From contig CM028335.1 in NCBI GenBank assembly GCA_016647705.1, positions 7,022,579 to 7,086,578 of the forward strand: a stretch of 64,000 bases of DNA, written 5' to 3'. Both the position numbers and the translations under genes were made by a program. Of the stretch, positions 1-58,200 are shown piece by piece. The notes beneath the pieces were generated by a model. The model did no database searches. It saw only the letters and a list, made by a program, of their open reading frames with translations, and was not told where the DNA came from. Within the stretch, counting starts at the first letter, position 1; each line of letters opens with the position of its first letter. This DNA comes from Eucommia ulmoides. Lineage: Eukaryota; Streptophyta; Magnoliopsida; Garryales; Eucommiaceae.

Positions 1-2529
1 GAATCTCTCGGCAATTGACAAAACTCTACAATAAAGGAACACTTCCGCATCAATTTATGAACTACAATGCCCTTGACAAATGCATAGGTATGACACATAA
101 ACATAAACACGCGAGCGTGAAATTGAAGTAAATCTATTCTATAAATTATCTAGAAAAAAATAAGAACATTTATGTTCTATTCTCATAAATGTGTTCTTAA
201 AAAACAGAGTATAAATTCGATTTTTTTTGTTCCATCTTCAAGATATATAGAATTAGAACAACTTTGTTTGCTAAGAAACAGACATTAGAGAACGTAAATA
301 GCTTTAGAGAACAAAAACAAAAATTGTTTCAGTTTTAGAGAACAATGATTGATGAAGTACAAAAAAATAAAAAAATTCAAGAGGTTGTGAAAAAATTTGG
401 CATACCGGTATAGTTTTAGCATTTTTCGTATTCGGGCAAAGGACCAAAACCAGACATATCGTCCCAATCGACCTTTGGCAACACCGGTGTACGTGCTTAA
501 CCAAATTGCACAACAACCAAAAGAACATAACAGAACAGAACAAAATAATTTTTATTGATCTCGAAGTATCATGAACATCACAATTAACCAAAAGGTAAAA
601 ATATAAAGCATGCGCACAGTGAAATGAGTGATTTCCATCATTTCTTGCATCATTTCTTATTGCCTCTGACGGATCTGTTTGTTCTAAAACATCATGTTAG
701 AAAGGGAAATGCTAAAGTTGCACTTGTTGTGGTTGGATATGACGACAAAGTCAAGATAGGCTATATGATTTGGCGTTTATAGGATTCTTAGCAATGTATT
801 GCAATTAAAAAAAAAATGTTCCAAGGACTTCTAAAATGCCTCTATCTGTTTGGCGTTAATTTAGTTCCAAGTTTTTCACAAACAGAAACAAAACCAAAAA
901 AAAAAAAAACGGTAGTCACAGAAATGCAGAGCATAATAGAGACAAAATTCTAGGAACAATCTATATCCCTGAATGAAGGGCGATCAAATTCATAGATTGA
1001 AAATCCTAACTTTTTTACAATTCATCAACATTATTGAAATTGAAAACTTAAACCTTAACTAAATCAAAATTGAATCCTAAAATCTAAACCTCAAATTCCA
1101 GAACCGAATCACACATCACGTATAAACCAAGCAAGTTCTGGATCACCAAAAAAATCTATCATTCTAATGAATAGTAAGCTAATCAAATACGAAGCCATAT
1201 AGTTCGTAACACAATCGAGATCAAGCGAGAGATTAATAGAAGTTGAAAAAGAGATTCCGCGGAGCTATACCTATGTATCCATATCAGAAAAAATAGCCCC
1301 AAGCTGATTGATCATACTCATCCACAATTGACAAGAAAAAAACAGCATTGCACTTGCCCCCATAGATTTTCAAGACTAAAGGGGAAAATCACAATGAGCA
1401 ACTTGAAATAGAAACAAATTTCTACTCCCGGAAAAACTAAAACAATTTTTGCTTTTGTTTTATATAAGGACGCACTAAAAAAAATTGAAGTAAAAACAGA
1501 AATATGTTCCCATGTTTTTGTTTCAACTCCCCGAAAAACTTGAAATAAAAACAAATTTCTGGGAACAATTTGTTCTGTTACCAAAAAAATTGTCCAAAAA
1601 TCTAGGACTATAACAGAAAAACATGAACAAAATACTAAACAAATAGGACTTTGTGTTTATGTTCCCAGTTCTGCGGAACAACGATCTGATGCGGAAGTTT
1701 TATTAAGAAAAAATAGGAAAATGAGCAAATTTGAGAGTAAAAATGTAAAAATCAGATCTGAAAAAACATCTACCAGTTCGGAAAAAAATCATGGATCTGA
1801 AAAAATTTCTCATTTGAGGCAAAAATAGAGTATGTTAGATTTCGAGGCACAAAAGGGTGAGGTTGAGGAGAGGGATAGAGAGAAAGATGAAGATAGAAGC
1901 ACACCTGAGAGTTGATAATCGCGTAACGATGAAAATGGGACTGCAAGAGGGAAGATAAAGAAAACCCTAGATCGCAGAAAGATGAAGAAAACCCTAGATT
2001 GCAGACCGTCTAATTACCTGTTGCCAACTGAAGAAAAAGTACAATTACTTGTCTCCGGCGGGTGACAATGGCCATCTACTGTGGCCATCAAGATCCAACC
2101 CTCGCCATCCATCAAAAGGGTCTACCGTGGCCATCCAGATCTGGCTTCCTCTTCTACGCCATTCGAGAGACTTCTAGGGACGGTGGTGGTAGCGGCAGCC
2201 TTCAAAGAGCAGACGATGAGACTGTGAGAGAGAGAGAAGCGAGCAACGGGGAGGTGCGATGAATGATGGCGCGACATGGTGTGAGGCTCGACGACGTGTG
2301 AGATGGTGAGGCGCGGCGTGATGGAGAACGACAGCGGGGCTGGGGCTAGGGCTGGGAGCATGGGATGAGAGACAGAGATAGAGAAGCGAGAGGCCGGTGA
2401 TGGGGGGCTGAACAGGGGAAAGTGGTGTAGGAGTTGCGTGAATTCATCTCAGCCTTCCATTTAGATAAGATTTGATATGGACCATTGAAATATTCTAGTC
2501 AGTAAACATCATTGTGATTTATTAATAGA
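1..2529 (-). mobile_element. Helitron C, 5' part (3' end outside window)
   Basis: On the minus strand this starts with TCTATTAATAAATCACAATG directly after the CTAG terminus of Helitron B. That is close to the 5' ends of Helitrons A and B, which begin TCTATATAATAAATCAGC. Behind the 5' end lies a GC-rich, low-complexity block (about 1860-2440), then AT-rich DNA with scattered GAACA/TGTTC motifs (about 160-600 and 1430-1690), the same ordering as in the other two elements. No helicase or convincing gene is visible; short reading frames here have no recognisable domain. The 3' hairpin and CTRR end would lie left of the window, so this may be a non-autonomous element or a truncated 5' end. Confidence 0.5.
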
Positions 2530-2533
2530 CTAG

Positions 2534-2562
2534 CGTATAACCCGTGCCTGAAGGCACGGACA
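2534..2562 (-). other. Helitron B 3' terminal hairpin and CTAG end
   Basis: The minus strand reads CCGTGCCTTCAGGCACGG, a near-perfect palindrome, then GTTATACG and CTAG. The base after CTAG is T. This is the standard Helitron termination signal. The same hairpin and spacer occur at the end of Helitron A. Confidence 0.8.
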
Positions 2563-2649
2563 TAAAACATATATCATTTATTTGAACAATTATATCAATT
2601 TATTTTATTATTCAACTTTAAAATGTTGCATCAACAGAAACAATTACAG

Positions 2650-5600
2650 TCACAATAATACTTCAGGATAAACAATATTTGTCGTGGATAGAGATCCATA
2701 TTCGGGAAGAAGTACACTTAATCGATCAAATGATGTACACCTTGATAAGGCCACATATAGTTGACCGTGACTAAAAACCGGTGTAGTCAAATCAACTCCA
2801 ACAAATTTCACTGATTGTCCTTGTGATTTATTTACGTCATAGCATATGCCAAACGAATTGGAAACTGGGGCCTTGTCATTTGAAAAGGAAATTCAGAAGA
2901 CAATGGCGTCAAGGATATTCTCGGAATGAACGCCAAATTTCCTGCTTTATCCCCTGTCAATATTCGAGCTTCTATTACACGTAAAGAACACCTGACAACC
3001 ATTAATCGCGTGCCATTACAAAGTTCATCACTTGGTGCGATATTTCTCAACAACATAACTGGACATCCAATTTTCAAATCTAATTTGAACGGAGGTAATC
3101 TTGGAGGATCTAAGGAATTCAAGTACTCGTTAGGATAACGATTTGTAATTTGACGATCAGCTCCATCATCTTCAGACATTTTATCTGCGGCCAGATATGT
3201 GATCATTTCTCCGGGAAAAATATTTAAAGCAGCTGAATTAATAGCACTAACATCGTCATTTCTTGCAGAAGAATAGAACGTTCAGTTAGAAATGTAGGGG
3301 TAACAACACTGGGTATGCCTAGATGTGGATAAAGTGAAGATATTAGTTCAACTACATTACGACACTTGTGTATGGTTGACGGCAACTGTACGATTTCATG
3401 CGGATCACTGCCAACCTATTTAAAGAAAAAATAAATGTAAATGAATAATTTAGTATCAAAGCATATATAAGTAATCTATTACAAAATGTTAAAATATATT
3501 TAAATGAAATATTACCTGAAGTAAATATCTCGAAAACTCTGCATTTTCAATGTTCCTATTATTTAGGCGCATGTTTAAATTCAAAGTTAAGACATGTATA
3601 TCATTCCAAAGGTACGAACGTCTCAACGATGCTGCCACAATTTGTTGACGGACACCTTTAGGTATAACAGGTAGAATTTGCCGAAAGTCTCCTCCAAGAA
3701 CAACCGTGATACCCCCGAATGGATTTGGATTACTGCAAATATCTCGTAGCGTGCGATCCACAGACTCAACGCAGTACTTATGTTGCATCGGAACTTCATC
3801 CCAAATGATTAACTTTGTCTCTCTAAACAATTCGGCATGCAACGATTGTTTACTGAAATGACAAATTGAATTATCAAGAATATCTAAAGGGATGCGAAAT
3901 GTGGAATGTGCAGTTCGACCTCCTTCAAGTAGTAGCGATGCAATACCGGACGATGCCACAGTAATGACAATGTGACTGTTACTACGACATTTTGCTGCTA
4001 TGGTATTATATAGAAACGTTTTTCCCGTACCAGCACCACCATTCAAAAAAAACATTTTTCCTAAATTTCCGAACACTGATGAAGTGATTGATTCGTATGC
4101 AGCACGTTGGTCTTCATTGAGACGATCAATATTACACTGCACATTCCTTTGTTGTGCTTCACTTTGCATTTAACGATGTTCCCATATCAATCTATTTCCA
4201 ACTACCATATTCCAATTCTGGACAGGTTGTGGAATCGAAGGAAAATCTACTAAGCTCTTGCCCGATTCTTGAAGTAATTGATTCAAAAGGTACAAACTGT
4301 AGTCTTTAATCTGTGCCTCGCTTAGGACGGGTATCGAAAATAACGTGCGAACTTTATGTGAGAGATCATCACATATATGCATCCAAAATTGATCCCACAA
4401 TTCACACGGATTTAAAGGGGAGCATTGTGTAAGAATGACGCAAAATAATCTTCTCAGTTGATATCCAGTACTCATAATAGACGTCTCTTGAAGACATTGT
4501 ATCCATTTACTATCATCTTCCAATAGCCCTCTTGCTACACATGCGGCTTTGAACGTCGCATGTTCAACATTGTTTACAATGCGTAGACACCTAAATGATT
4601 GCGGCCCTTTTACTACAGTCAATAGTAGTTGCAGATAAAATCGTTCACCCGAATTGGGAGGCGCAAAATACATTCTGCCGATGGCAAATCCCCTCTGTCG
4701 TGGCTTCCAAAAAAATTTAGTTTTATTCCAAACAAAATGCTGGGGAAACTCTTGATAAGTATACACACGTGCAGAAACATGTGCATCACAATATGAAAAA
4801 AATTCTGTTAGAGTCGACTTCTGTGACTGAGCTCGAGAAATGATAGACTCTATTGTTTCAGTAGGATTGAAGACAACCTGATGCATTCCAGGCAAATGGA
4901 GCGCCAATCGAACAACTGTTGGATTCTCATCGTGCAAAGGAAAACTCAACAATCGCCAGGCTGCCTCAGAGGGTCCAATGTATCTTGCATCAAGATATTG
5001 CTTGATCTCATCCATCATTCCCAAAATCAATGTCGTCGTATCACCTCCTTTATAGATATACTTGTGGATATATTTGACGCACCTAATCCCAGCGCATACT
5101 TCAACATTAATATGACAGTCAAACATCTCGGAAAGGTACGGATTGTATGGGACGACGTCTCTATTATCAACTTGTTGCCCCCTCACGGTATAAACTTTGC
5201 CATTATCACGACGACGGTAAATGGGATATCCATCTGAATCCATCGTTGTATACTCCGCAAAATCTCGTGGATACCTCTTAGTGCATCTGCCGTTCTCCAT
5301 GCATGGGACTTGACAATTTTGAGCACCACATGGTCCGTGAACCATGCATTTTTTTATTGTCTCGAAAAGTTCTGGCTCTTCATTTGGATCTGGAAATTCA
5401 GCACAAACTATTTTGTCTACTTGGTCGCACGTTCGAATTTTATCTTGATTATCAAGAAATATCAATAAGTGCATGTGCGGCAGACCTCTTTTCTGGTACT
5501 CAATTGTAAAAACATGGGCAACTTTTTTTCCAAATACTCGAGTGCTTTCAATCTCTTTCATTAGAGAAATTCTTTTTAACTCGAAAACGCGAGCAATTAA

Positions 5601-8600
5601 GTCTGGACGGTCAGTTGGTTGTTGATGAGGCAATAAAGCTTCAGTGATTTCTGTCCAAGTTGGATTCGCAGTCATGGTAAGAAACACATCAGGGTGATGG
5701 TGGTACCGGGTTATGGCCATTGAATCTTGGAAGATTTCAAACATATGTCTTGGACTACCAATAAAAGATGATGGCAAAATCATTCGTTGACCTATTTGAT
5801 TAGGTTCCATCCCATCTAATGCCACATCAGTAAGACTTTGATAGAGTTCACTACGAAGATTTGGTTGATGTTGCCTAAAGTAATTCAACCTATTTTGCTC
5901 GGTCGCAGCCCAAGCATCTAGCAAGAACTCTTGAAATAATTTTCTTCCCCTTAGAATTGTCGAATACTCTGTCGGCCTTTCAAAAATACGGTAGCTATAA
6001 AATTGCATTTGAGTTAGTCGAGCGTTTGTGTGTCGACCGTGAATCACATCCCACTGTCTAAATTCAGGCTCCCATCCAAGCTCACCAAAAGGGAACAACA
6101 AAACGTAATGCAATGGTAGATAAGCAGGATGACATTCATTGATTTTCATTAGTTCATTTCCCCCCCTTAAATGTATAACAATATCTCTCATCGCGCTAGT
6201 TTCGGTTCCATCCCCCGGTAATATGACGGCCACGTCATCAGTTGTCGGAAAATTATATCGCCGATGATCGGTAGATGCTGTGTAGTGAAGAAAAGCAGGC
6301 AACGTTTGTTGTTCCAAATCCAATTGATTTAAAATCGCAAACGCTTGACGAAATTTATCTACGAATGCATTATGTTGCAACAATGTATCTTGAATAGTTT
6401 GCAAAACATCTGTTCTCAAATGAGGATTTCTACGGCTTCTCACGCCAAAAGCGAAATCAGGATCGTAGATGTACAACTGAGAATAAATGGCATCTTGTCC
6501 CGGTTCTGGGATTAATGCTCCTGTCCGATGACGCAACTCTCCATGTATAGTAAACGTTGTTGGGCCTCTTCCGGAAAGCAGCCTTGTATCCAAGTTGGCA
6601 CCGAGGCTTGTAAAAGCATTGCTTGCATTGTACTCTCTAGCATAACGTCGGAATGATTTTGATCTATCATCATTATCATCATATAACGCTTTAATTTGCG
6701 GAGAAGGTGTGAGAAGTAATGGAAGCCTAACTTTCCCTTGTAAGCAACATGTACCGAAGAGAGGACGTCGTTCGGATGATCTTGTTAATCTCTCATCCAT
6801 CCAGTGTAACGCAGAACAATGAGGGCACATGACATTCATTCTACCAAGCGAGTGTCGATTTTCACTTGTATGAACATCACGGTCGGCAGTTGGATTGTTG
6901 AACTCGTCAATATCTTGATTATCGTAAAACTCATCATTGGTAGTATTTGGCGGCCTACATTTGATAAATAACAAAATTATTATGTAGATTCTAACAACAT
7001 ATTTGTGAACGCCGTATTTAATTAGATGAATAAGATAAAAAAGAAACTCACCATCTATTCCCAGAAGGTAGATTTGTTTCTTCAACTGCTACGGTCGAGC
7101 TTTCATTAAGGTTCGTGGAAACAAAAGCTTCTTGGTTATTGCACGCAAAAGGGCATGCATCGTCAATTATACCAAGAGAATGAGGAATCAAATTTGTAAC
7201 CATCCCATCGTCAACAGATGAATTTCCTGCATGTTCAGTATCTTGATTCTCGGCAAGGTGTTGATTTGTTGAAGCTGACCTATAGTTGGCAAATATTAAA
7301 TTTTACACATCAAACACTTTTAAACATTTAATACTTAATAACATGAATAATGGATTAGTATAATACCTTATACCAGGCAATACAATTGGTTCCTCAACTT
7401 CAGGCGTTGAGCATTCATTCGGAGTTACGGTAACAAATGTTTCAGTAAGATTACGTGGAAAAGGCAAATTTGGTTCAACAATAGAATTCATTTGATTAGC
7501 CATGGACGATGGAGTAGTGCGATCCCTAAGGAGGTCCACAATTCCAGGGGTACATGGACTCGTAATCACTGATGGCCCACATGATTGTACAATCATTCTC
7601 TGTTGACTATTCTGAATATGTTATTGACCGGATCTCTCTCGTTCTCTTCGTGCTCGTTGAGCTAGAACACGTTTCGATATGCCGTTGTTGTTGGGTGCTA
7701 TACATTTAGGAAGTGTAATTGTTTGCTCAACGTCCAACGTTGAACGACTGTTGGGTATTGTGGACACAAACATTTCAGTAAGATTTGGTGGGGACGTCAA
7801 ATTGGCCTCAAAAGTAGAATCCCTTTTGTTTTCCATTACTGGAGAAGGAACTTGATCACTGAGAATTATAGGGGTATATCGACTTGTGCTTGATGATGAC
7901 ACAGAAACTGTTGTAACCATTCTTCGCTTCGGCGTAGGCTCTGATGATTCTCCCAAAAATGGCTGACCTCCTTCCAGGCATTCACGATTATCTTTATTGA
8001 AGCGATCACACCGCTCCCGGTCAACTCTTTCCCGTTCTCTTCGTTCTCGTTGAGCTAGAGCCCGTTTCGATACATCGTTCTTGTTGGATGCTATATATTC
8101 AGAAGGTATAATTGTTTGCTCAACCCCCGTTGAGCGACTGTTAGGTGTTGTGGACACAAACGACTGACCTCCTTCCATAGGGCCATCACAGATCTCCCGA
8201 TCAGCTCTCTCCCGTTCTCTTCGTTCTAGTTGAGCCACAGAACGTCTTGACACATCGTTTGTGCTAGATGTTCTGGCAATGTTACCTGTGCGGGATCTTC
8301 CACCTTCTTGACATTCTAAAATCGGACGACTAAACCTCTCTCGTTCCCTTTGCATTCGTTGGGATATAGCAGATTTTGATATGACGTTATCATTGAATAC
8401 CTAAAGATAATATGAGGTTGAATCTTCAATTTTCTAGATCGAATAAATGAAAAAGAACAGTGGAGGACAGTGTGACAAAGTACGAACTAAAATTGGTACT
8501 AAATGAAACCATAAATAACATGTAATAAGTTACGGTATAAATAAGAATACGGATAATTTAATATCACCACAAAGGCAAGAGTATAAATACAAAATCAGAT

Positions 8601-8905
8601 TAGATAAATAACTATACATTTGAAATCACAGCTAAATATGTTCTTATCATGTTTATTGTCAGGTTAAGATTTTTTCAAAATTTAAGTATAAACCTAACAT
8701 GGACACAAATAGTCATAATTATTTAATACGTTTAATAGATTAAATATGTGATTATTGTTGAATGATAAAACAGTGATAATTAAAACTAAAAAATAATTAA
8801 CCTTACTAATTAGACACATACCACAATGCTACTGATGTTCCCCTTTTCACTTTTCTCTTTCCCTCTACTATTTGAAGTAGAATTTTTATTTGACTTGTCA
8901 TCCAT
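2650..8905 (-). pseudogene. Helitron Rep-PIF1 helicase, broken
   Basis: This encodes the Helitron transposase, a HUH-type replication initiator fused to a PIF1-like 5'-3' DNA helicase. My exon model is 8822-8905, 7367-8400, 7052-7279, 3516-6954 and 2650-3415, all with GT-AG borders and matching phase. The N-terminus has four Arg-rich ISKRxLAQRxRRERER-type repeats. A CPHC...HW zinc-like motif lies near 6820. The Rep HUH signature GLPHMHLLIFL is near 5455-5490, and the two-tyrosine motif YIHKYIYKG is near 5045-5075. The helicase has Walker A GGAGTGKT (about 4017-4041), Walker B LIIWDE (about 3790-3815) and [11 protein letters not shown]. The C-terminal PIF1 block GCPVMLLRN follows at about 3050. 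Breaks are an in-frame TAA at 7621-7623, an in-frame TAA at 4170-4172 between Rep and helicase, and single-base frame changes near 3270 and 2830. It is very probably non-functional as read. Confidence 0.85.
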
Positions 8906-9333
8906 TGCCAAATTTTTTTCCTTGAAAAAATAAAAATAAAAATTCAATGCAAAATAAATGATAAACTAAAATTATATTATGAGCTTAAAAAATAAATTGT
9001 AAGATTTACATATTAATTAACAATTAACAAAAGCAAGAGAACAATAAAGACAGAAACATATATAATATTAAATCCATCACATTAAGACAACTTTTGTTGA
9101 ATATAACAAAGTAAAACAATCAATCACATTACAAAATACAAAATGTATATCATGAATCATGAATACAAAATACATTCAAAATATATTTTCAACAACCGAA
9201 GAGAAAAAACAGACTTGACGAGGTAACCCTACAAAAGGAAAAGAAAGAAAAAAATATATTAGACATAAAATATACCAAATGTATATCAAGAATACAAATT
9301 ACATTAAAAATTATTTATACCTTAAAAAACAGT
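8906..9333. other. AT-rich spacer inside Helitron B
   Basis: This is an AT-rich stretch upstream of the helicase start codon, so it should contain that gene's promoter and leader. No motif stands out and no coding signal is visible. Confidence 0.4.
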
Positions 9334-9858
9334 TTACGGTACAACTTCATTACTTTGGTTGCCAATTTGTAGCTGAACCTCGTATTCCTCCAGTGCCTTT
9401 AAGCCAATCTGGTCGTCCTCGATGCTCTCTAACAAAGTTTCTAATGCTCTTAGGTCTAGGAGTTCTTTCTTTAAGGCTCTATGAACTCTAACTCTAAGCC
9501 AAGATTTCGGTAGAGTACGCACTATTACATACACCAACACTGCCCAATTTGGTTGAAACCCCTTACGTTTTAGGTGGTAGTACAGGCGCTCTTTTCTAAG
9601 TACATGCATTCTAACACTCTCTTTTTTATTCATTTTCTCTCTTTCAAATTCTCTCCATAATGGATGTACATCTTGTTCAGCCTCTTCTAAAAATTGTACA
9701 AATTCAAAGGCAGTAAGAGGCCGATGATTTTCAAATATATTCTTTGTCGCCACATCCCAATTTGATGGTAAGCCATCAACAATTTGGTTCATTATGTCTC
9801 TCTCACTAATTTTGTACCTATAATTCTGCAAAATTCTAGCACTTGCTATTTTATTCAT
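9334..9858 (-). CDS. Unidentified gag-like reading frame in Helitron B
   Basis: This is an open frame of 174 codons lying between the Helitron 5' half and the helicase gene, on the same strand. I cannot assign it with certainty. The pattern ISERDIMNQIVDGLPSNWD, followed later by VRTLPKSWLRVRV and LEEYEVQ, resembles the helical gag (UBN2-like) region of plant retrotransposons, where a conserved LP-x-x-W/Y sits between helices. Charged residues dominate and there is no membrane segment. The upstream sequence on the same strand could extend the frame only through stops. Likely alternatives are a captured gag fragment or a chance open frame. Nothing shows that it is expressed. Confidence 0.35.
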   Translation of the reverse strand: MNKIASARILQNYRYKISERDIMNQIVDGLPSNWDVATKNIFENHRPLTAFEFVQFLEEAEQDVHPLWREFEREKMNKKESVRMHVLRKERLYYHLKRKGFQPNWAVLVYVIVRTLPKSWLRVRVHRALKKELLDLRALETLLESIEDDQIGLKALEEYEVQLQIGNQSNEVVP

Positions 9859-10129
9859 CCCATATTCTCTAACGGGACAACTTTGTAAATAAAATTTCTC
9901 ATAAAAGAATTATTTTTCCGTACGCAATTTTAATCTAGTACTCGTTCTCAATACGATAGCGGGTCGTACCATATTGCTTGAGATTGAAGGACATAAATAA
10001 CACATAAGGCAAACACTAAACTAAAACACTTAATAAATGCTAAACTAAAAATAGAACAAATTTTAGGAACCCAAAAATAATATATATAGATGTTGTATAA
10101 TATGTATGTATGTTGCTGTGTTTTTAAAA

Positions 10130-11137
10130 TATAAGATGTTTTTGTTTGTTGGGGGACCAAATTAGAAATAAAAAAAGATGTAGAATTTGATTCTTTTGGT
10201 GAATTTAAGATAATAAAATAATTGGGGGGGGGGCAATATGGATAAATACGGTTAAATTTTTTGTGATCCTTATATTTTGGGTGTAGTTTCAAATGGGTAG
10301 CTAAAGTTTAAATATTTTAATTGAACCCTTAATCAAATAGCAAGGTCATCGGCTACAGTTTTTATAATACCCCAGAGTGACCGAGACACCTCTTATCAAT
10401 GAAAAGAAACAGAAACAGGAACAAAAACAGAAACAGCAGGAACAGAAACAGAAACAGGAAACAGAAACAGAAACAATTCATAAACAGAAACAGAAACAGA
10501 AACAAAAACTGAAACCAAATGCTACCTTGCGAGGAGCATTGAGATCAAATTGTTTGTATTTAGGTGACGCATTTGGTTAGTGTTAACTGTTTTTGCTCCC
10601 AGAAAACTTTGTTTCTGTTCTGATGGTTAGTGTTAAGATGTTTTTGTTAGTTAGGGGACCAAATTAGAAATAAAAAAAGATGTAGAATTTGATTCTTTTG
10701 GTGAATTTAAGATAATAAAATAATTTGGGGGGGGGGGCAATATGGATAAATACGGTTAAATTTTTTGTGATCCTTATATTTTGGGTGTAGTTTCAAATGG
10801 GTAGCTAAAGTTTAAATATTTTAATTGAACCCTTAATCAAATGGCAAGGTCATCGGCTACAGTTTTTATAATACCCCAGAGTGACCGAGACACCTATTAT
10901 CAATGAAATGAAACAAAAACAGGAACAAAAACAGAAACAGCAGGAACAGAAACAGAAACAGAAACAGGAAACAGAAACAGAAACAATTCATAAACAGAAA
11001 CAGAAACAGAAACCGAAACCAAATGCTACCTTGCGAGGAGCGTTGAGATCAAATTGTTTGTATTTAGGTGATGCATTTAGTTAGTGTTAACTGTTTCTGC
11101 TCCCAAAAAACTTTGTTTCTGTTCTGTTTCTATACTG
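10130..11137. repeat. 504-bp tandem duplication with GAAACA hexamers
   Basis: Two neighbouring copies with an offset of 504 bases share the segment from AAGATGTTTTTGTT through a run of G, the phrase ATACGGTTAAATTTTTTGTG, a hexamer array built of CAGAAACAG/GAACAGAAAC, and TGTTTGTATTTAGGTGA. The hexamer array gives a Lys/Gln/Thr-rich open frame in each copy, which I treat as a by-product of the repeat. The copies differ by scattered substitutions and a few repeat units, so the duplication is not the newest event here. Confidence 0.85.
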
Positions 11138-11450
11138 TTCTGTTTCTGTTTCTATTTTTTATTTTTTATTTTCCAATTTTCAGTTCTGAACAGAAACACT
11201 AAATCAGAACAGAAATCAGAACAGAAACACTAAATCAGAAACAGTTAACACTAAATCAGAACAGAAACACTAAATCCAAGCCCTAATCCCTGTTAACACA
11301 GAAACCGAAACAGAAACCAGAAACCGAAACAGAAACCACATTTATCCATTGAGAATTTCACCATTGAGAACAGAAACACTAAATCAGAACAGAAACAGTT
11401 AACACAAAATCAGAACAGAAACAGTTAACACAAAATCAGAAACAGTTTCC
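11138..11450. repeat. Degenerate GAACAGAAAC repeat tract
   Basis: Short motifs such as CAGAACAGAAACACTAAAT and CAGTTAACAC recur many times in imperfect order after the 504-bp duplication. This looks like expansion of the same hexamer-rich sequence. No gene is visible. Confidence 0.7.
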
Positions 11451-11740
11451 ACCGACCCTCAGGTGAACAAATCTATACTGCTCAACCACTCCAACGTTTT
11501 CGTGCCCTGGTATCCCAAATCAGTCACGGAATTGCTCGGAAAATCCTCCATTTTCCAAATGAACGGAGCTTTGCAGAAGAGGGTTCATGGCCTCAACTCA
11601 TAGAATTCATAACTAAATATATTGAGAACTCCGTCAAACTCTCCTTGCAAGATGAAGTGCTATACATATGCATATATGTGTATATATTGGTTGCAGATAA
11701 CATTTCAAGTTCTGGGGAAGACATGAATTTTCTCAAGAGA

Positions 11741-11950
11741 GAAACCGAAACCAAAACCAATTTTTCAAAACTAATATACTGATAACGATTGAGAAGAGCA
11801 CTCGGTGAAACAGAAACCGAAACCAAAACCAATTTTTCAAAACTAATATACTGATAACGATTGAGAAAAGCACTCGGTGAAACAGAAACCGAAACCAAAA
11901 CCAATTTTTTAAAACTAATCTATACTGATAACATGAAGAAGAGCACTCGG
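11741..11950. repeat. Three 72-bp tandem repeats
   Basis: Copies start at 11741, 11813 and 11885. Each begins GAAACCGAAACCAAAACC and continues through AACTAATATACTGATAACG to AGCACTCGG. The first two are almost identical; the third carries small changes and ends in different sequence. Repeat units touch without spacers, so this is not a CRISPR-type array. Confidence 0.9.
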
Positions 11951-12300
11951 ATTAGGGTTACCTTCACCCGTCCAAGCTTGACTGAAATAGAAACCGAAAT
12001 CACCGTCCAAGCTTGACTGAAACAGAAATCGAAACCAAAACCAAATGCTACCTTGCGAGGGTTTTATAGATGCGAGGAGCGATTCCATTAGGGCACGGCA
12101 AACAGAAATCTGATTAGGGCACGGAGAAGCGGAGAAGCGGCGGACGACAGCTACAGGTCTATCAGAGTAGGGAGGCGACGGCGACGGCGACGGGCTTGAC
12201 GGTAAGGGTCTCTGCTCCTGCGGCTCTATAGGGTCTCTGCTCCTGCGGCTCTCCAAATTGACGGTAAGGGTCTTAGGCTTTTTTTTTTTTTTTTTTTTTG
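11951..12300. other. GC-rich low-complexity block in Helitron B
   Basis: GGCGACGG-type triplets and small duplications (for example GGTAAGGGTCT and CTCCTGCGGCTCT) give a GC-rich island between AT-rich flanks, ending in a T run. Comparable blocks occur at the matching position of Helitrons A and C. It may be a decayed captured exon or just family sequence; I recognise no protein. Confidence 0.45.
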
Positions 12301-12439
12301 ATAAACTGATGGTAAGGCTCTTAGGCTGTATTATTATATAGGGTATTGATGGTAAGGCTCTTAGCCTGTATTATTATATAGGGTGTTATATAGGGTGGCG
12401 AATAGATTATATATAGATCATTATATATATAGATTGTGT

Positions 12440-12448
12440 ATTATTATA

Positions 12449-12496
<48 letters not shown>
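12440..12496. repeat. AT dinucleotide microsatellite
   Basis: A long run of alternating T and A lies just inside the 5' end of Helitron B. Confidence 0.95.
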
Positions 12497-12499
<3 letters not shown>

Positions 12500-12639
12500 G
12501 ATTAATAGTTATATATATTAATGGATTATAGATTATATATATAGATGTTGTATATATCAAAAGACATCCAATGGTTACGAATATCCAGAGACATCGGACG
12601 GCTGTGAATGTAAATGAGCTGATTTATTATATAGATTAG

Positions 12640-12666
12640 CGTATAACCCATGCTTGAAGGCACGGG
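12640..12666 (-). other. Helitron A 3' terminal hairpin and CTAA end
   Basis: The minus strand reads CCGTGCCTTCAAGCATGG with one mismatched stem pair, then GTTATACG and CTAA (12636-12639). The spacer is identical to that of Helitron B. Confidence 0.75.
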
Positions 12667-13540
12667 TATAAAACGAAACGACAATTTTTTTTTTTTACAT
12701 AATCTCTTTTTTTTATACAATATTTTACATATATTTCATCTGACCATCAATAATAATAATAGAACAATAATAATAACTAACCATAGAGACTAAATCTTAT
12801 TTTTACTTAATTTGAGGACTATCATCATTACTTTTTTCCAGCTTCTTCGTTTCGTCGCCCACTCTCTAACTGCCGGATTCTTAGTGTTTGCCTTTCATTT
12901 TTTTTTTTTTTTTTTTTTGTTTTCTTTTTTTGTTTGAGGGGGGTCCATTTGTTTATATCTCAAAAATTTGTTAAAAAAACTGGGATCAGAAAAACAGATT
13001 ATGTTTCTATTTCTCTGTTCTAATCCAATTTTAGTAGAAATAAAAAGATTGAAAAAACTAACCAAACAGAACCTTAGTTCTGCAGAAGGCGAGGTTTTTT
13101 TTTTGGAGGGGGTGGGTGGGGGGTTATTATTACTCATCTATGTAAAAGCTATATTTCCTTTTTAAAAAAATTGGCAATAAATCTGACTTTGCACAAACGG
13201 TTACTCTTCAGTCCTAAAAATTATGAGTGAAAAAAGAACAAAAGAGAAGTTAAAAAATGGGCAAAGTTCGACATTGATTATTTTAGCATTGTCAAATTAG
13301 TCCAAAAAGTTCTAATTTACTCAATTAAGTTCCTAAACTTTAAATAGAGCAACAAATTGGTTTCAAATTCCAATTTCATTCTTCAGTCCACTACATCCAA
13401 TTTCACTCTTCACATCAATAATAATGAATCTATTTTGTTCCCACTTCCCAAAAGAATAGAAACAAAAATTTGGGTGCAAAACAACAAAAATATAAATAAA
13501 TTTTAGAAATGTAATTACCAATTTTAAATAAAAAAATTAA

Positions 13541-13562
13541 CCCATGCTTGAAAACACGGGTG
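13541..13562 (-). other. Second Helitron 3' hairpin lacking a CTRR end
   Basis: The minus strand reads CCCGTGTTTTCAAGCATGGG followed by GTTAA and then a T-rich run instead of the ATACG-CTRR terminus. The bases before it (minus strand) also resemble those before the true end at 12640, so it is a decayed or bypassed terminator rather than a chance palindrome. Confidence 0.55.
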
Positions 13563-13599
13563 TACAAAAGGTCAAACCTAAAAAAAAATTAACATAATT

Positions 13600-14656
13600 T
13601 CTTTTACTTATACAACATTCAACAAAAAATTAATATTTAAATTCCGTCACCAACTAAGTATATTACAAATACTACATAATTAATATCGATAACATAGATA
13701 TCCATCTATTCAAATAATACCACAATTAAGCCTAAGTTAAACCACAACAAATCAAAACGAAAAATGATTATTGCCCATCTAAATTTCACTATTTCAATGA
13801 TACATTTTGCATGTCTAAATCTCATATTTGATGTTTGATCGGGCATGAGGAGGCAACACCCATGAACACTTTCAGTTAAACAATTCAATTCAAAATTTCA
13901 TTCCAAAAAATAGATAACTAATGAACATGAACATGCACACACACAAACATTGCCTCATCTCATGAACACTTTTAGCTAAACAAATGAGCCCAAATTGTTG
14001 CATGTTTACCCACTGTAAACCAAAAATTTTAGCTGGATGAGAAGAAAAATAACCAAATTAGAACACCATAAGTGAATTGCAAACGTTTGTAAATAAATTG
14101 ACACAATTTTTTCTACTTATACAACATTCAACAAAAAATTAATATTTAAATACTGTCACCAACTAACAATGTATATTACAAATACTACATAATTAATATC
14201 GATAACATAGATATTCATCTATTCAAATAATACCACAATTAAGCTTAAGTTAAACCACAACAAATGAAAACGAAAAATGATTATTGCCTATCTAAATTTC
14301 ACTATTTCAATTATACATTTTGCATGTCTAAATCTCAGATTTGGTGTTTGATTGGGCATGAGGAGGCAACACCCATAAACACTTTCAGCTAAACAATTCA
14401 ATTCACATTTTCATTCCAAAAAATAGATAACTAATGAAAATGAACATGAACATGCACACACACAAACATTGCCTCCTCCCATGAATACTTTTAGCTAAAC
14501 ATTACCCAATATTGTAGTGATCACGATTGAACAAACACTTTTCGTAAATAAATGAGCCCATATTGTTGCATGTTTACCCACTGTAAACCATAAATTTTAG
14601 CTGGATGAGAATAAAAATAATCAAATTGAAATACCATAAGTGAGTTGAAAACGTTG
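13600..14656. repeat. Tandem duplication of about 0.5 kb in Helitron A
   Basis: Copies begin near 13606 and 14115, an offset of 509 bases. Both run through ACTTATACAACATTCAAC, TCAAATAATACCACAATTAA and AGCTGGATGAGAA. The second copy has an extra stretch of about 50 bases near 14505-14555. No coding function is visible. Confidence 0.85.
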
Positions 14657-16811
14657 TCATTTTTCCATCCTTCGCCATAGTTTGGCTGCCATTCTTCATT
14701 CCCTATTTTCAAATTAACCGCAAAAAGAATAGTTTGTCTTTTACAAAACAAAGAAATCAAGAATAATTGAGTAACAAAGAGGGCAAGAAATTGAAAAAAA
14801 AAATTAAAAAAAAAATCAGAAGTATAAGAAGTATAGGTGACTGTGTGGTGTGCACTGTAATTTTCATTGACGACCCACGTTAAACAGGTGGTGTGCAAAT
14901 TTAGAGTTTCCAAATGCTTCAAAATTGAATTAAAAATCAACAATTAGAGGCAAAAACATCCAATGAATCATACGAACAAATCATACAAACAAACAACATA
15001 ATTCTATTTTTAGCAAAAAAAATAAATCAAGGTCTCGACAGGAAAAAACAAAGAAAAAAAGAAGCATCTAATTCAGATTTTAATAGAAATAGGAAAAAAA
15101 TTACCTTCATCCTATGTTGAGCAACCGACACGATTAGAGAGGAGATAAAACCTGCAATTATCAGAATTATTGTACCAAAACAAATAAATTAAAACTGAAA
15201 ATAAAAATCACAATTACTATTGGAGTACCTGCGATTGCTCTCTGACACCTAAAAGTGATTAATATACAGCCTGAAGGTAATTAAGAAACAGGTGTACAGA
15301 ACAGATATATTAAGATAATTTCGAGAAAAAAAAATGTTTCAGGAGAAATCTAAGTGTATTGTAATTTTAGAAGAAAAACTCAATGAATTCATATGGAGCT
15401 GCTTCATACAGTTTATTTTGAATTGGAGTAATACCCACTTGCTCTCACCTCCCAAAGTTATCTATTTGCAAATAGAGGTTAGAGCTTAGACTGCAAAGAG
15501 AGGCTGAAAATATATACAAAAAAAATCGTATATCACCAAATATTTTTCATTAGATATCGAATACCCAAAATTCCAAAATTTGATCAATTTTTTTTCTCCA
15601 AATTTTAAACCAAGCATTCAAATCATTTAAGCAAGAAAAAAAAAATGCTGAAATAACAAAACTTAGATGAAGCATCAATTTAAAAAAAATAATTTTTTTT
15701 TTGGTGATTTGGAAGAATCGACCGAAATGAAAAAACTCAATTTTTCCAATCTTTAAGATCAAACCACAAGAAAATGTGGGGATTGACAATTATAAAATGA
15801 AAATCAATATAACTCAGATCTTGAAATCAGACTGAAGGAAACCTTCAACATCAAACCGAAGCATTTCTAGAGAACTAAGATATGGTCATAGAGGAAAGAT
15901 AGGGAGACGCAAAAAACGAGAGTGCACCTGAGTTGAAAGGGGAGCTGCTTTGGCATGGCCTTCGACCTCGAAACAGAGAGACAAAGAGAAGCTGAAGGCT
16001 TTGAGCTTCAACCACTTGAGTGTAATGAGAACTCACAACCAAACAACCTGCATGATAGAACAATGAGAATAGAACCCTTAATAATAAGAAAGTATAACAG
16101 AAATCAGAGACTAACAGAAACAGAAAACAGAAATTAGAGACACACCCAAAACAGAATTCAAAAAAAAAAAAAAAAAAAGGAACTGAAAACAAAATAGAAA
16201 CCCACAAGTGTCTAGATCCGACCACTACAGGCCACTGCCATCTAGATTCGACCACCGACAGCCATCGCTATCGCGATCCAGCCCAGTTGAAGTTTAATCT
16301 GGCCAAATCAAACTCAGATCTGGTCGAATCAACGACGACGGCTACTGCGGTGGTGGTTGGTGACGGCAATGGCAAGAGCGTTGAGCGAAGGGACCGATCG
16401 ATCGATGTCGGTTGGGAGCGTTGAGGATCTGGCGATGACGATAGTGAGGGCTAAAGAGACGGCGAGGGCACTGCAGTGCTCCAGCTGTAGCGGAGACGGC
16501 GACGGAGTGTGAGTGAGAGAGATGAGCGATAGAGAGAAGTGAGAACGTGCAGTGAGAGAGAGAATGAGAGGGCATGCACTGGTCTTGAAAGGTAGGCACT
16601 GGTCTTGAAAGAACATGAGGAATCAAATCTCTTTGTGAACAATGTATCTTAGCCCTTGGATATTAGATCGATGGGCCTTAAATGTTTCCCGCCCAAGAAG
16701 TTACTGTAGCTATACTAGTACATTTTCAAACTTGATTTTTAATCTAACGGCTACGAATATCCATAGACATCTAACGACTGTAAATATAAATAAGCTGATT
16801 TATTATATAGA

Positions 16812-17473
16812 TATATTAAAATAGTTTGTGTAATTTATATAAAAATAAGAAAAACAAAATAATATGTAACAAGTTTTTTTTATTTAAACTTCCAAATAAT
16901 AAATTACTAAGTTTTTTTTAATGTCGTTTCATTAGAGGTTGATATTGATTTGAGAGGAATTGATAGATGAAATTGGATTAAGTATTTGGGGGACAAAAAA
17001 TTTGTCTAAATTATCTTACGTACTATCTAAATTTTAGTTTTGTATTTAATTTGACTGTCTTTTTATTATTTATTATTTTTTTATAATTACAAATTAAAAA
17101 ATCAATATAGTACATTTAGACACGGAAAATCACTGCGACAAGGTTATAAGCCCGGTTGGGTCATACCGATCATTTCTAAAATCTAAATATAGATTAAAGC
17201 CCGGATCAGGACCCGACCCAAGTCGGACTTCGTCCGAGTCCGGTCGAGGCAAAAAAAATAAGCTTTTAATAGGACAATAAATTTTGGGCTTCAGGGATTA
17301 TTTGGGCCTAAATCGGAAGATCGTGGGAGACGAAGCCGGAGCAGCGACAGAGCAAGGGGAATTCCGATTATGCGAAGCTTTTCAATCGCTAATTCGGTGC
17401 ATTTTTCTGGATATAACTGCAACTAGAGCCATCGATTTGAGTTTTCAGTTCCTGAAGGTTTTCAATTTTTTTG
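16812..17473. other. Intergenic and leader DNA before the TRF-like gene
   Basis: AT-rich spacer runs to about 17100. More GC-rich sequence follows, rich in GGxCGGG and GTCCG words (17140-17260), then the presumed leader of the downstream gene. No TATA box or other promoter element is clear enough to call. Confidence 0.4.
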
Positions 17474-30139: not shown

Positions 30140-30239
30140 NNNNNNNNNNNNNNNNNNNNNNNNNNNNNNNNNNNNNNNNNNNNNNNNNNNNNNNNNNNNN
30201 NNNNNNNNNNNNNNNNNNNNNNNNNNNNNNNNNNNNNNN
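30140..30239. other. Assembly gap (100 N)
   Basis: Exactly 100 undetermined bases, the usual placeholder for a gap of unknown size. Continuity across it should not be assumed. Confidence 1.
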
Positions 30240-52207: not shown

Positions 52208-55200
52208 ATGGAAGCTTTGTGCCGTAAATTTGATCTCTACTCGCCGCCGCTCTCTTCAGTCTCCAAAAACCTCCCAAAATCCACTGCCATTAGACGCCAC
52301 CCGCCTCGGATTTTGTGCTTGAATCGTAAATGCCGAGTCTCAGTGCCTCAAGCTTCGGCCAAACTGGAGCGCTCTTCGCAATTCGATTACGAAAATCTCG
52401 GCGGATTAAATCGGAAATTGAGGAAATGGATCGGAAGCGGATTGCTCGGTTTCGCCGCTGCAATCACGGTTTGCGGCGATGCTCCGGCGCTGGCGGAGTC
52501 ACTGACTGTGGCGTTCCCTGTTTCCCACACTCTTGAGGTGAAAATTCAGTACTGTAATTCGACTGTGTTTTTCTAGTTTTTTTTTTCGCCCCTGGATTTC
52601 GTTTTCTTTCTTGTTGATGCGACAGTTCGTAGATTGAATATCTGTTTGGTTATGTCGAATTGAAATTGAATTTTCAGTGGAGAAACAGCTGTTATACAAG
52701 TTGCTCTTAGTAGATTGTATACTCATGAGGTATATAATTTGTTTGGTAATGGTAGGTGAATAGAGTTCAGAGAACACTTGTGGAGGCTTGGGGTTTGATT
52801 AGAGAGACTTTTGTAGATCCTACCTTCAATCATCAAGGTAATTCCATAAACAGCTCTAATTAGTTTTCTGAATTTTCAAATTTTTTTTTTTTGTAAAAAA
52901 GAAATATTAATTATATTCTTTAAAAATATGAATTGTTAGGAAATAATGTTGTTCATGTCTCATAATCACAATAAAACGGAATTAAGCAATAATCTAAAGC
53001 ATACATGATTATTAAAACACAATAATAAATAACGGTAATCGACTACGTACCTGTTTGGACCATCGCAGAAGATTGAATCTATCGCAACGGATTACTAATT
53101 AGATCTTCTTCCATATGATCTAGATTTTATGGTGGAGACTCTCAATGAGAAGAAACCCTTAATCTAGACTATGGAGAGGACCTAATTATATATACTAAGG
53201 TTTCTCGTTGGGTCTTCCCATAACGGGTTTCAATGAAACTCTAAACCTATATTTGCCACTTAACTAGACTTCTACATAAAAGACATCACAGCTCAAATCA
53301 AAATATGATCATTTATTATTTGGGTTGCTTAAATAATAGATTATCCATTAATCTTTTTTTTGTAAAACAATTTATATTAATTAATGTTAGCTCACAAAAA
53401 AAAAATTATAACATTCTCCCATTTGAGTTACATTAATTGAATAAATTTGATTTTGAAAACAAGACTCTCGGGTTGATGACAGAAATTTTTTTATTTTTGT
53501 GTGGCCACACTTTTTTTTTTTTGTAAAGAAATGATAGTCTATAAGTAGCATCTTTATAAACTTATCATGTCCAACATGATCTTAATATTGAATTATGATA
53601 GTCTATATATTAATCTTAATAAATATAAGACATTTCATACTCACAAATACTTATAACCATATCGACATGGATCGTAAGCTCAGGAGTATAATAAGAAACC
53701 AATGTCAGAATGTGATCATTATCAATATGCATTGTTCTTATCGATCCTCATTACAATTTCTCAACAAAATGAAATTACTAATTGCAGTTTCTCAATAAAA
53801 TGAAACTGTTACAATTTCTCAACAAAATGAAATTGCTACAATTTCTCAATAATATGAAATTATTTGACTTTAACAAGTTATCTGCCATTAATAATACATC
53901 ACAAGATCTAAAAATAGTGATTTGTGACAACCAAAAGTATACAACTATAATTCTTAAGACACAATATTTTAAAATACCATATTGTATAATCAATTCAAAT
54001 AATATAATATATAATAATATAACATGCAATAATGATAATCATAAAATAGATTTCAATTTTGCAAAATGCATAATAATAGTGATCACAACAGAATCAGCAA
54101 AATAAAGGAAACTACAAAAGCTCCCACTAAACCAGATAATCAAAAGATTTAATGACACCTATATTCACAACATGTTGCTTGAACGCTATGGGCCTTAAAC
54201 CTTTGGTTAAAGGATCAGCAAACATGAATTCAGTTCTTATATGCTTAATCATGACGTATCTTTTCTTTACTAAGTCCCTGACTGTGAGGTACTTAATTTT
54301 CATATGCTTGGAATCCGTACGTATCTTATTGTTCTTGGAGTAGAACACGGCTGCATTATTGTCACAATAAATCACAATGGGTCGAGAGATAGGGTCAACA
54401 ACCCGCAGCTCTGAGATCAGATTTCGTAGCCAAACAGTTTGAGATGATGCACCATAACAAGTTACAAATTCAGCATACCTAGTCAATGATGCAATTAGGC
54501 TCTATTTGACACTTTTCCATGAAATGGATTAACCAGCTAGAACAAAAATATGTCATGAAGTAGATTTGCGATCGTTTGAACAACCACTAAAATCAGAATC
54601 TGAGTACTCAATTACTTCGAGATTATCAATCCTCCTATACACTAGCATAAAATTCTTCTTTCTTTGTAGATATTTCATGACTTTCTTTACAGCAACCCAG
54701 TGATCATGCCCAGGGTTCGACAAATATCTACCAAGAACATTAACAATGAAGGCGATATTAGGTCTCATACATACTTATGCATACATTAGGCTACCAATCG
54801 CACTGGCATAAGGAACAGTCTTTACGACATCCTTTTCCAAATCATTCTTTGGATATTGTTCATTGTTGAGTTTAACTCACTTTACAACAAGCACATCACA
54901 TGCCTTGCATGTCTGCATATTGAACCTTTTAAGCACACAATCGATATAGGCTCTCTGAGATAGTCTGAGAAGGTTTCGAGATCTATCACGATGAATCTCA
55001 ATACCCAGAACAAATGATGTTTCTCAGAGATCATTCATGTCAAAATTAGCATACAAAAGATGTTTGATATCATTCAGGAGATTCACATTGCTACTAGCGA
55101 GCAGGATGTCATCAACATAGAGAATCATGAAAATGAATTTGCTCCCACTGATTTTCATAGAGACGCACTGATCAAACTTGTTTTCTACAAAACCAAAAGA

Positions 55201-58200
55201 TGTCACAATTTTGTCAAATTTTAAATACCACTGTCGAGAAGCTTGCTTGAGACAATAAATTGACCTTTTCAATCTGTATACCATGTTCTTCTTTCCATTT
55301 TCCTTAAATCCCTTAGGCTGTGACATGTAAACTTCCTCACTCAAATCTCTATTAAGAAAAATTGTCTTGACATCCATTTGGTGAAGCTCTAAGTCAAAAT
55401 GAGCTACCAACGTCATGATTAGCCTAAAGGAATCATTGGTGAAAATTGGTGAAGAAGTCTCTGTGAAATCAATGTTTTCTCGTTGTATGTATCCTTTAAC
55501 AACCAATCGGGCCTTTAATCTTTTAACATTCTCTTTGTTGTCTCTCTTAGGCTTGAATACCCATTTGCATCCAATGGGTTTATATTCCTTGGGAAGATCA
55601 ACAAGTTCTCAAATATTACTGTCTGACATAGACTGCATCTCATATCCCATGACAATTAGCTATTCATTTGCCTGATCGCTATTGAGAGCTTTACGATAAG
55701 TAGTCGGGTCCACCTCTTCTCCAATATCATATTCTCTCTCTCCAAGGTAAACATAGTAGTCGTTAGAAATGACAACCCTTCTAGTTCTTTGCGATTCCCT
55801 CACTTATACTTCAGAAGAGGACTCATTCGCAAGCTCATTGGTTAGAGGGATCTCATCTGCAATAGGCGTTACTTCAACAGTAGAGGGAGTGACAATATCC
55901 ACACCTCGCTGAATCCCTCGATTAATAGCTCCATCATAAGAGATGACTTATGAGGCCGGTAAAGGTAAAAAAACAACATCAATGGGTTTCACTCTTTTAT
56001 CGAACTGAGAGAGAATGACTTCAGCAACATCCAACTCCAAAAATTTTTCCACTTGAGATTCAACAACTCTAGTGCCACAAGTCGAACAATAAAATCTGTA
56101 TCCTTTTAAGTGATTAGGATACCCTATAAAGTAGCATTTAGTTGTTCTCGAATCTAACTACTTCATAGAAGGATCGTAAAGCTTCACCTTAGCTGGATAC
56201 CCCCATACTCTAAAATGATTCAAACTGGGTTTTCTGATCGTCCATAGTTCAAACGATGTTTTAGTCACTGATTTGCTAGGGACGCGATTCAGAATGTAGG
56301 TTGCTACTTTGATGGCTTCACCCCACAAGTATTCTGGCAAATTCGATCTGCTCATTATGATCCTCTTCATTTCCATAAGAGTGTAATTGCACCTCTCTGT
56401 CACGTTATTCTATTAAGGACTTCCTGGCATAGTATACAAAGCAACAATACCATTATCCTGCAAGTACCTTGCAAAAGGTCCCTTCTGTTGTTCTGCATCA
56501 CCATGCTTCCCATAATACTCACCACCTCAATCAGATCTCACAATCTTGATGACTTTCCCCAACTGTTTTTCAAGTTTAGTTCGAAAGATTTTAAACATTT
56601 CAAGAGTATCTGCCTTTTTTTTTTTTAAATTAAATAAACATAGTCATATCGGGAAAAATCATCAATGAATATAATGAAGTACTTGTTGCCACACAAGCAA
56701 GTCGAGTAAGGCCCACTAATGTCTGTATGAATAATCTCCAACAAACTCTAACTAAAGTAGCACCTTTTTTCTTGGTCTTGGTCAATTTTTCTCTTACACA
56801 ATCAACGCAAACTTCCAAGTTATCAGAATCAAGAGGAAAAAGAATCCCAAAACCAATCAAGTGATCTACTCGTTCCTTAAAAATGTACCCCAACCACTTA
56901 TGCCACAATAACGAAGATCTTTCCTTAGTCAAAGATCTTTTAGCAACAATGTTTTCAACATTGTAAGAATATGCAAATAACAACGAAAATCTATAAAGCC
57001 CATCAGATAAAACACAATTGCCAACTACCTTAGAGTCATAAATCATCTCAACTCTTTTATTTGAAAAAGTGAAATAATATCCATTTCTATCAAGTATTGA
57101 AAAAGAAATTAAATTTCTTCTAAACGAATGCACACAGAAAACATTGTCCAAAACAAGTTGAAAACTAGAGTCTAAATCTAAAACAACAGTCCCGACGTGC
57201 TTAACACCAATCCCGATATTACTGCCAATTTTAAACTTTGACTCTTTCTCACTTGACTTCCTCAGGTTTCTTTTCCCCTGTAAAGAAGTTGCAATATGAA
57301 CAGTAGCACCACTGTCATGCCACCAAGAATTTAAAGGAACATCAACTAAATTAGATTCAAAATAGACATAGGCAGATCACATACCATGTTTCTTCTTCTT
57401 CTCTAGCCAGTTCTTAAACTTAAAGCAATCAACCCTCTTATGACCCTTTTTGTTATAGTGAAAGCGCTTAATGACTTTGTTCTTGGCATTTCCATTTCTC
57501 TACTTCTCACTCCTACTTTTCTTGAAATTCTAATTTTTCTTGTGACGGTGGAAGTTGGACTTTCTAGTCTTCTCACTCCTCTTCTGATTATTTGGCTTCC
57601 CAAGAGTAATAAAATGAGCAGATTCATTCCTTTCTCTTTTCAGCTTTTCTTCCTCAATCACACATTTCGTGATCAGATCGTTTACACTCCAAGTCTGATC
57701 TTGGGTGTTGTAGGCAGTCTTGATTTGGCTAAAAGAAACTAGCAGAAAGTTGAGAGCGTGATGAATAATGAACTTATCGGGAAACGGAATGTTTTGTGCC
57801 TTCAATTTAGTTTGAAGATTTACCATTCTCAAGATTAATTCGCGAACGCCTTTTGTATCATCGTACCTCATATTCATCAATCCATCCATAAAATACCCAA
57901 CCTCGGCATTGTCCAATGTCTGGTATAAGTTTTCCACAGCAGTGAGAAATTCCTTAGCCTTTTTACTCTTAGGTATTCCTCTAAGGAGATGCTCAGCAAT
58001 TGACCTCTTAATTGAAATGAGGGTCAAACGGTTCGACCTTTCCCAATTTTCATAATAAGCTTTCACGACTTCAGTACTCTCATTAGTAGGTTGAGGAGGT
58101 TCATCCTCACGGAGGGTCAGGTCCAAGTCCATTATTCCAAAAATGAACTCAACGTTTGACCTCTATTTCTTATAGTTCGACCTATTTAGAATTTTAATAG

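Follow-up and report, generated by a model that had tools for sequence, protein, structure and literature searches.

How three Helitrons come to lie head to tail without a single base between them is the question raised by a locus of Eucommia ulmoides. The window, a stretch of 64,000 nucleotides (G000:C11:7022579-7086578) in a genome of 946.67 Mb and 391 contigs, carries on its minus strand Helitrons A and B and the 5' part of a third, C, in one row, in the same orientation and with zero bases between them. Judged from the sequence, these are very probably three separate Helitrons assembled by successive insertions, each between an A and a T on the border of a resident Helitron. The elements and their terminal features are the following.

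12636..16811, minus strand: Helitron A, 4176 bp, with its 5' TC at 16811 after a host A and its 3' CTAA at 12639-12636
2530..12635, minus strand: Helitron B, 10106 bp, with a Rep-helicase gene, its 5' TC at 12635 and its 3' CTAG at 2533-2530
1..2529, minus strand: 5' part of Helitron C, with its 5' TC at 2529 and its 3' end beyond the window
12647..12666, minus strand: imperfect 3' hairpin of A, 7 bases before CTAA
2541..2560, minus strand: 3' hairpin of B, 7 bases before CTAG
12566..12635, minus strand: 5' terminal region of B, 86% alike to A 16742-16811

Both junctions are as the initial annotation described them. At 12636/12635 the minus strand reads GGGTTATACGCTAA and then TCTATATAATAAATCAGC, with A's CTAA followed directly by B's TC; at 2530/2529 it reads GGGTTATACGCTAG and then TCTATTAATAAATCAC, with B's CTAG followed directly by C's TC. 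The same annotation had all 3' ends sharing a hairpin and spacer. This holds for A and B, whose 3' ends are the only two in the window, with the qualification that the hairpin of A is imperfect and was missed by a strict scan for perfect hairpins. That scan also found no hairpin in the C part (1-2529), as it found none in A. The 31-base 3' motif (up to 3 mismatches) occurs at 2 places in the window and at 0 in 100 shuffles. The further claim that all 5' ends share about 20 bases needs adjustment, since A and B are alike over about 70 bp at 86% and C shares only 15 bases with one gap. With a score of 13, the start of C matches the 5' consensus better than any other of the 127,920 start positions (both strands counted), once the ends of A and B and shifts of a few bases are excluded.

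Copies elsewhere in the genome show what these borders are. As the annotation had proposed, the genome was searched for termini and junctions, and the candidates scored were 40 of 1619 for the A/B joint, 40 of 1387 for the B 3' end, 40 of 797 for the A 5' end and 40 of 78 for the C 5' end. The borders coincide with ends of dispersed family copies, and the five that can be tested (both ends of A, both ends of B and the 5' end of C) are supported as real ends. At the 3' border of A, 20 of the 23 places that match on the A side stop within query positions 256-282 (border at 265), and the other three stop at 204, 210 and 244. At its 5' border, which lies at query position 250, 32 of 37 other places start within 237-252 and the remaining 5 start 26-48 bases earlier. 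A thus has canonical ends, with a 5' TC after a host A, a 3' CTRR before T and a hairpin, imperfect, near the 3' end.

For B, all 39 fetched copies besides the window finish at CTAG with T as the next base, and their flanks are mostly unrelated. An apparent 13-base extension of these copies past CTAG was dropped, the flanks being mostly unrelated TA-rich DNA. At the 5' end, 14 of 14 copies among 20 fetched loci start at the border with flanks that are all different; nine begin with TC and five with TA (L059-L072, the TA cases having TA-rich flanks), and 13 are preceded by A. The other six loci in that scan comprise a joint of another subfamily (L073) and five A 3' loci without a B 5' copy. The ends of B fit a canonical Helitron (TC, hairpin, CTRR, insertion between A and T), with the caveat of the five TA starts. 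The C family is likewise dispersed in the genome and its copies have the 5' TC end in common. Its 5' end was found at 33 other places, where 10 matches start at the border, 5 start two bases later, 3 start three to four bases earlier and 15 cross the joint. No match to C was found among the other fetched loci; the family appeared in the later genome search. When ends were paired by coordinates, eight further copies emerged for the A family (2.4-7.2 kb) and nine for the B family (10.1-14.7 kb). The 3' end was also looked for in viral contigs, in one scan, and had no match there.

As a side observation, 5' ends seem to be less strict than TC, since 5/14 B-family ends have TA and 11/13 of the zero-spaced joints discussed below lack TC.

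These copies also bear on whether A, B and C form one larger composite repeat whose inner borders only resemble ends. Helitrons with nested elements and several termini have been described in maize and Fusarium, as far as excerpts of the literature go, and a Helitron 3' end precedes 15 of the 33 C-family 5' ends. However, the 40 places found with the A/B joint as query are mostly one-sided: 23 match on the A side only, 12 on the B side only, 2 across the joint at 80-83% and 3 at full length (the locus itself and contigs C249 and C115). Together with the other flanks at all the fetched B 3' copies and the differing upstream partners of C, read at 10 of its 15 joints, this makes a composite repeat scarcely credible. 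Genome copies in which the borders are internal to one larger repeat, the result named in the annotation as speaking against separate ends, were looked for and not found.

The upstream partners deserve a closer description. The figure of 15/33 C-family 5' ends that match through the joint is score-biased upward; above 150 bits it is 3/13, and four of the 13 (C14, C382) look like one duplicated group. Upstream bases at 10 of the 15 joints contain the hairpin in 10/10 cases (up to 4 mismatches allowed). The 52 bases before the hairpin sort into four types or more, of which one is B-like at 85%; the threshold for a type was the shuffled 99th percentile of 63.5%, at which two of five groups merge. 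Small deviations occur, for example in L083, which ends in CTAT instead of CTAR, and in L081, where the stretch ends at CTA.

A different origin would be rolling-circle read-through, or multimers of a circle, with the resulting concatemer integrating in one piece, a course proposed for tandem Helitrons of bats and plant centromeres. A circle junction gives zero spacing and the same orientation, and available parts of the literature discuss concatemers for Helraiser (PMC5876387) and raise them for Metarhizium acridum, where three copies lie in tandem (PMC5148889). The tandem units of the window are not copies of one element, however. When whole A, whole B and the first 2.5 kb of C were compared, A and B were alike over 70 bp at the 5' end (86%) and 38 bp at the 3' end, with only short repeat-like matches elsewhere (the longest 98 bp at 74%), and C had no match over 36 bp to either. 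The unlike interiors exclude a concatemer of one element. The three belong to different families, the 3' ends differ (CTAA and CTAG) and the upstream partners at C-family joints are of at least four types, so that integration as a concatemer is very unlikely. The annotation had preferred separate insertions, and this preference is borne out by the unlike interiors and by the dispersed family that each element has, with its ends where they lie here.

Misassembly could also have brought separate pieces together. Contigs C249 and C115 (L009, L011) contain the A/B joint, are nearly identical to the locus over the same flanks and were treated as redundant with it. Both break off within B, at window position 8257, which leaves a single contig with the B/C joint. 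Against this, three contigs, possibly built from the same reads, carry the A/B joint, a misassembly is not expected to break exactly at Helitron ends, and joints of this kind are found again elsewhere in the genome; an artefact of this sort is most improbable.

The recurrence was counted in several ways. The pattern GGGTTATACGCTAGTCTATWWAATAAATC (up to 2 mismatches) occurs at 47 places, or 45 without C115 and C249, and its reversed control at 0. In a second scan, 0-30 bases were allowed between a 3' end and AATAAATCAGC. This gave 16 places, 14 of them distinct after removal of the two redundant contigs, with 0 for the reversed-pattern control. Among the 14, two are zero-spaced with TC (one being the window), 11 are zero-spaced without TC and one lies at +4, with no other spacing seen. 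A zero-spaced joint without TC can just as well be described as an insertion into the terminus, two bases from its edge.

Genome totals are 1097 for 3' ends, GGGTTATACGCTAR (control 2), and 704 for 5' ends, TATATAATAAATCAGC (control 1). With about 9.6e7 sites of A next to T, extrapolated from the density in the window, random insertion at such sites predicts 0.004 exact joints. Eleven distinct ones were found with the window included (10 without it), in a scan that asked only for GTTATACGCTAR, a 3' end defined slightly more loosely. This points to the front edge of a Helitron as a frequent landing place for other Helitrons. The perfect array, which the annotation thought worth documenting, is real and yet not singular, since zero-spaced joints recur elsewhere. 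Separately, the 39 fetched B copies include joints with A/B-type 5' ends in L021, L027 and L051 and, judged by eye, with another type in L032, a number biased upward because the query included C's 5' motif.

A newcomer that enters between A and T, right at the 5' border of a resident Helitron, would by itself leave zero spacing, an argument also made for a maize pair in the excerpt of its report (PMC2267711). Why the joints should be so exact is a further matter. A likely reason would be a preference for TA-rich targets like TATATAATAAAT, which is also the start of Helitron 5' ends. That the exact joints reflect only this preference, as a form of target mimicry with insertion occurring before TATATAATAAAT-like DNA, has a chance somewhat short of even. 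The 3' flanks of B are TA-rich, positions 1-6 being mostly TATATA, in a sample biased by a query that contained C's 5' motif. The 12-mer TATATAATAAAT occurs 5585 times in the genome and its reversed control 5185 times, so most of its sites are ordinary AT-rich DNA. Among 18 3' ends followed by TATATAATAAAT, 9 do not continue with CAGC, about 320 times the expectation for random insertion between A and T, and much of the effect may therefore be target preference matched by Helitron 5' ends. The other 9 of the 18 do continue with CAGC, compared with 704 of 5585 genome-wide (odds ratio 7, Fisher P 1.3e-4), and the joints in the window begin at TC, two bases ahead of the TATATAATAAAT register; both points speak against preference as the whole cause. 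Some of the 5585 sites will be other Helitron 5' ends, and target and recognition effects are not cleanly separated in these counts.

A possible addition to target preference is that Rep recognises the resident 5' end. In its full form, which is rather doubtful, Rep would recognise the 5' terminus of a resident Helitron and use its donor nick (A/TC) as the target, with Helitrons homing onto Helitrons. Register and orientation fit, with zero spacing at 13/14 distinct loci and an excess beyond that of the TATATAATAAAT 12-mer. The second motif in reverse complement was found at 0 places, a control for an inverted element in which reading starts within the 5' end, not for border-to-border adjacency. 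In the fetched loci, 0 head-to-head strings stand against 12 head-to-tail ones from 6 distinct places, several of which were fetched for the joint. On the other side, most zero-spaced joints lack TC, so that the nick would be non-canonical. A tentative proposal is that the 5' end of a Helitron would serve other Helitrons as an oriented landing site with exact register, where the transposase reuses the resident's donor nick site, and that arrays would grow stepwise at the 5' side.

Under successive insertion, the joints may also hold an order of arrival. If insertion occurs only between A and T, CTAG/TC would form solely by B landing upstream of a resident C, between the host A and the T of C, and C would have been there before B. 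The CTAA/TC joint would be compatible with either order of A and B. Several observations weigh against so simple a history. Some maize lines have only the upstream element of the pair, which the excerpted report reads as later non-canonical insertion of the downstream one between G and T, or as its excision (PMC2267711); such lines leave room for later G/T insertion and make the arrival of C before B less than certain. The downstream TC is missing in 11/13 zero-spaced joints, which the simple A/TC model does not explain. Seven of the GGGTTATACGCTAGTCTATWWAATAAATC places have the identical joint of CTAG and TCTATTATATAAAAC and could all stem from the copying of one joint as a whole. Finally, sibling ages leave the order unsettled. 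With loci fetched twice counted once, divergence from siblings is 1.6-3.9% for B (39 copies, last 1-1.75 kb) and 2.7-14.3% for its 5' copies (first kilobase at most), and 5.8-14.6% for A at six places. The youth of B was considered as an argument on order and rejected, the 5' part of B not being young.

Coding capacity was found in B, as follows.

4170..7085, minus strand: Rep part, Helitron_like_N (Pfam PF14214, E 1.3e-53; Helraiser 7lcc_A, E 7.8e-180), with an in-frame stop at its end
3489..4169, minus strand: PIF1 helicase part, which continues in the Rep frame right behind that stop (Pfam PF05970, E 4.2e-80; Helraiser, E 8.3e-37)
2650..3400 (approximate), minus strand: helicase blocks from the C-terminal end of B's protein, spread over two frames and recognised by eye in translations

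The first long open reading frame (ORF) of B aligns to Helraiser residues 76-912, including stretches that we take to be the HUH-type and two-tyrosine motifs. B thus has the Rep (HUH, two tyrosines) and PIF1-type helicase of a Helitron, interrupted in this copy. The last helicase block lies in a different frame and ends about 120 bases before CTAG. The annotation had called B an autonomous element; it does carry Rep-helicase, and its autonomy is doubtful because of the in-frame stop and the frame change. As it stands, the copy is probably non-coding unless splicing bypasses both. An RPA-like gene, of the sort often carried by plant Helitrons, was not seen among five scanned ORFs, no search having been aimed at RPA, and neither A nor the C part has an ORF of at least 150 amino acids.

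Other features were noted in passing. Within B, a fragment at 9334-9858, either captured or nested, resembles gag of the copia type (Retrotran_gag_2, E 4.2e-10). Positions 12307-12386 hold a 40-base tandem pair, CCTATATAATAATACAG on the minus strand, which is like a Helitron 5' end and could represent extra 5'-like termini. The 5' half of B (10132-12060) contains direct repeats of about 500 bases and GAAACA-type repeats, and similar, AACAGAAACA-like stretches are also found in A and C. Elsewhere in the window, a run of 100 N at 30140-30239 marks an assembly gap, and ORFs at 55024-58132 resemble, by eye, pieces of copia gag and polymerase.

Head-to-tail Helitrons and insertion near other Helitrons have already been reported, and the annotation was right that tandem Helitrons are known in some genomes, among them maize (PMC2267711), Metarhizium acridum (PMC5148889) and, as cited in PMC5876387, plants and bats; what follows is limited to the excerpts available of these sources. 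In maize, the TC of a second Helitron directly follows the CTAG of a first, and the different contents were taken to mean consecutive insertions (2008, PMC2267711). The Eucommia locus has the same CTAG/TC joint and unlike contents; it differs from the pair as excerpted in having two joints at one locus and one element with Rep-helicase, and in that the joint type was counted genome-wide. Metarhizium acridum also has three in tandem, although these are Fusarium-type elements with non-canonical ends, in contrast to the TC/CTRR ends and three unlike interiors here (PMC5148889). Tandem Helitrons of the bat Myotis lucifugus have perfect head-to-tail junctions, as here, and were taken as tandem repeats of related elements, unlike here (Pritham and Feschotte 2007, cited through PMC2267711 and PMC5876387). 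A tendency of Helitrons to insert close to or within one another has also been reported (Yang and Bennetzen 2009, cited through PMC3288121 and PMC12477314), a self-association in a plant like the one seen here; as cited, that work concerns proximity, whereas the present counts are of register and spacing at the 5' border. A T-rich insertion preference is described for DINE-1 (PMC2374699). Among the literature matches listed, judged by titles and abstract openings, no genome-wide count of zero-spaced Helitron joints was found.

Head-to-tail Helitrons have so far been single cases, used as evidence for rolling-circle transposition. With many exact joints in this genome, several of them between different families, such a joint need not mean a concatemer. 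The choice of targets between neighbouring Helitrons becomes testable by counting, and joined Helitrons can give rise to composites that have several ends.

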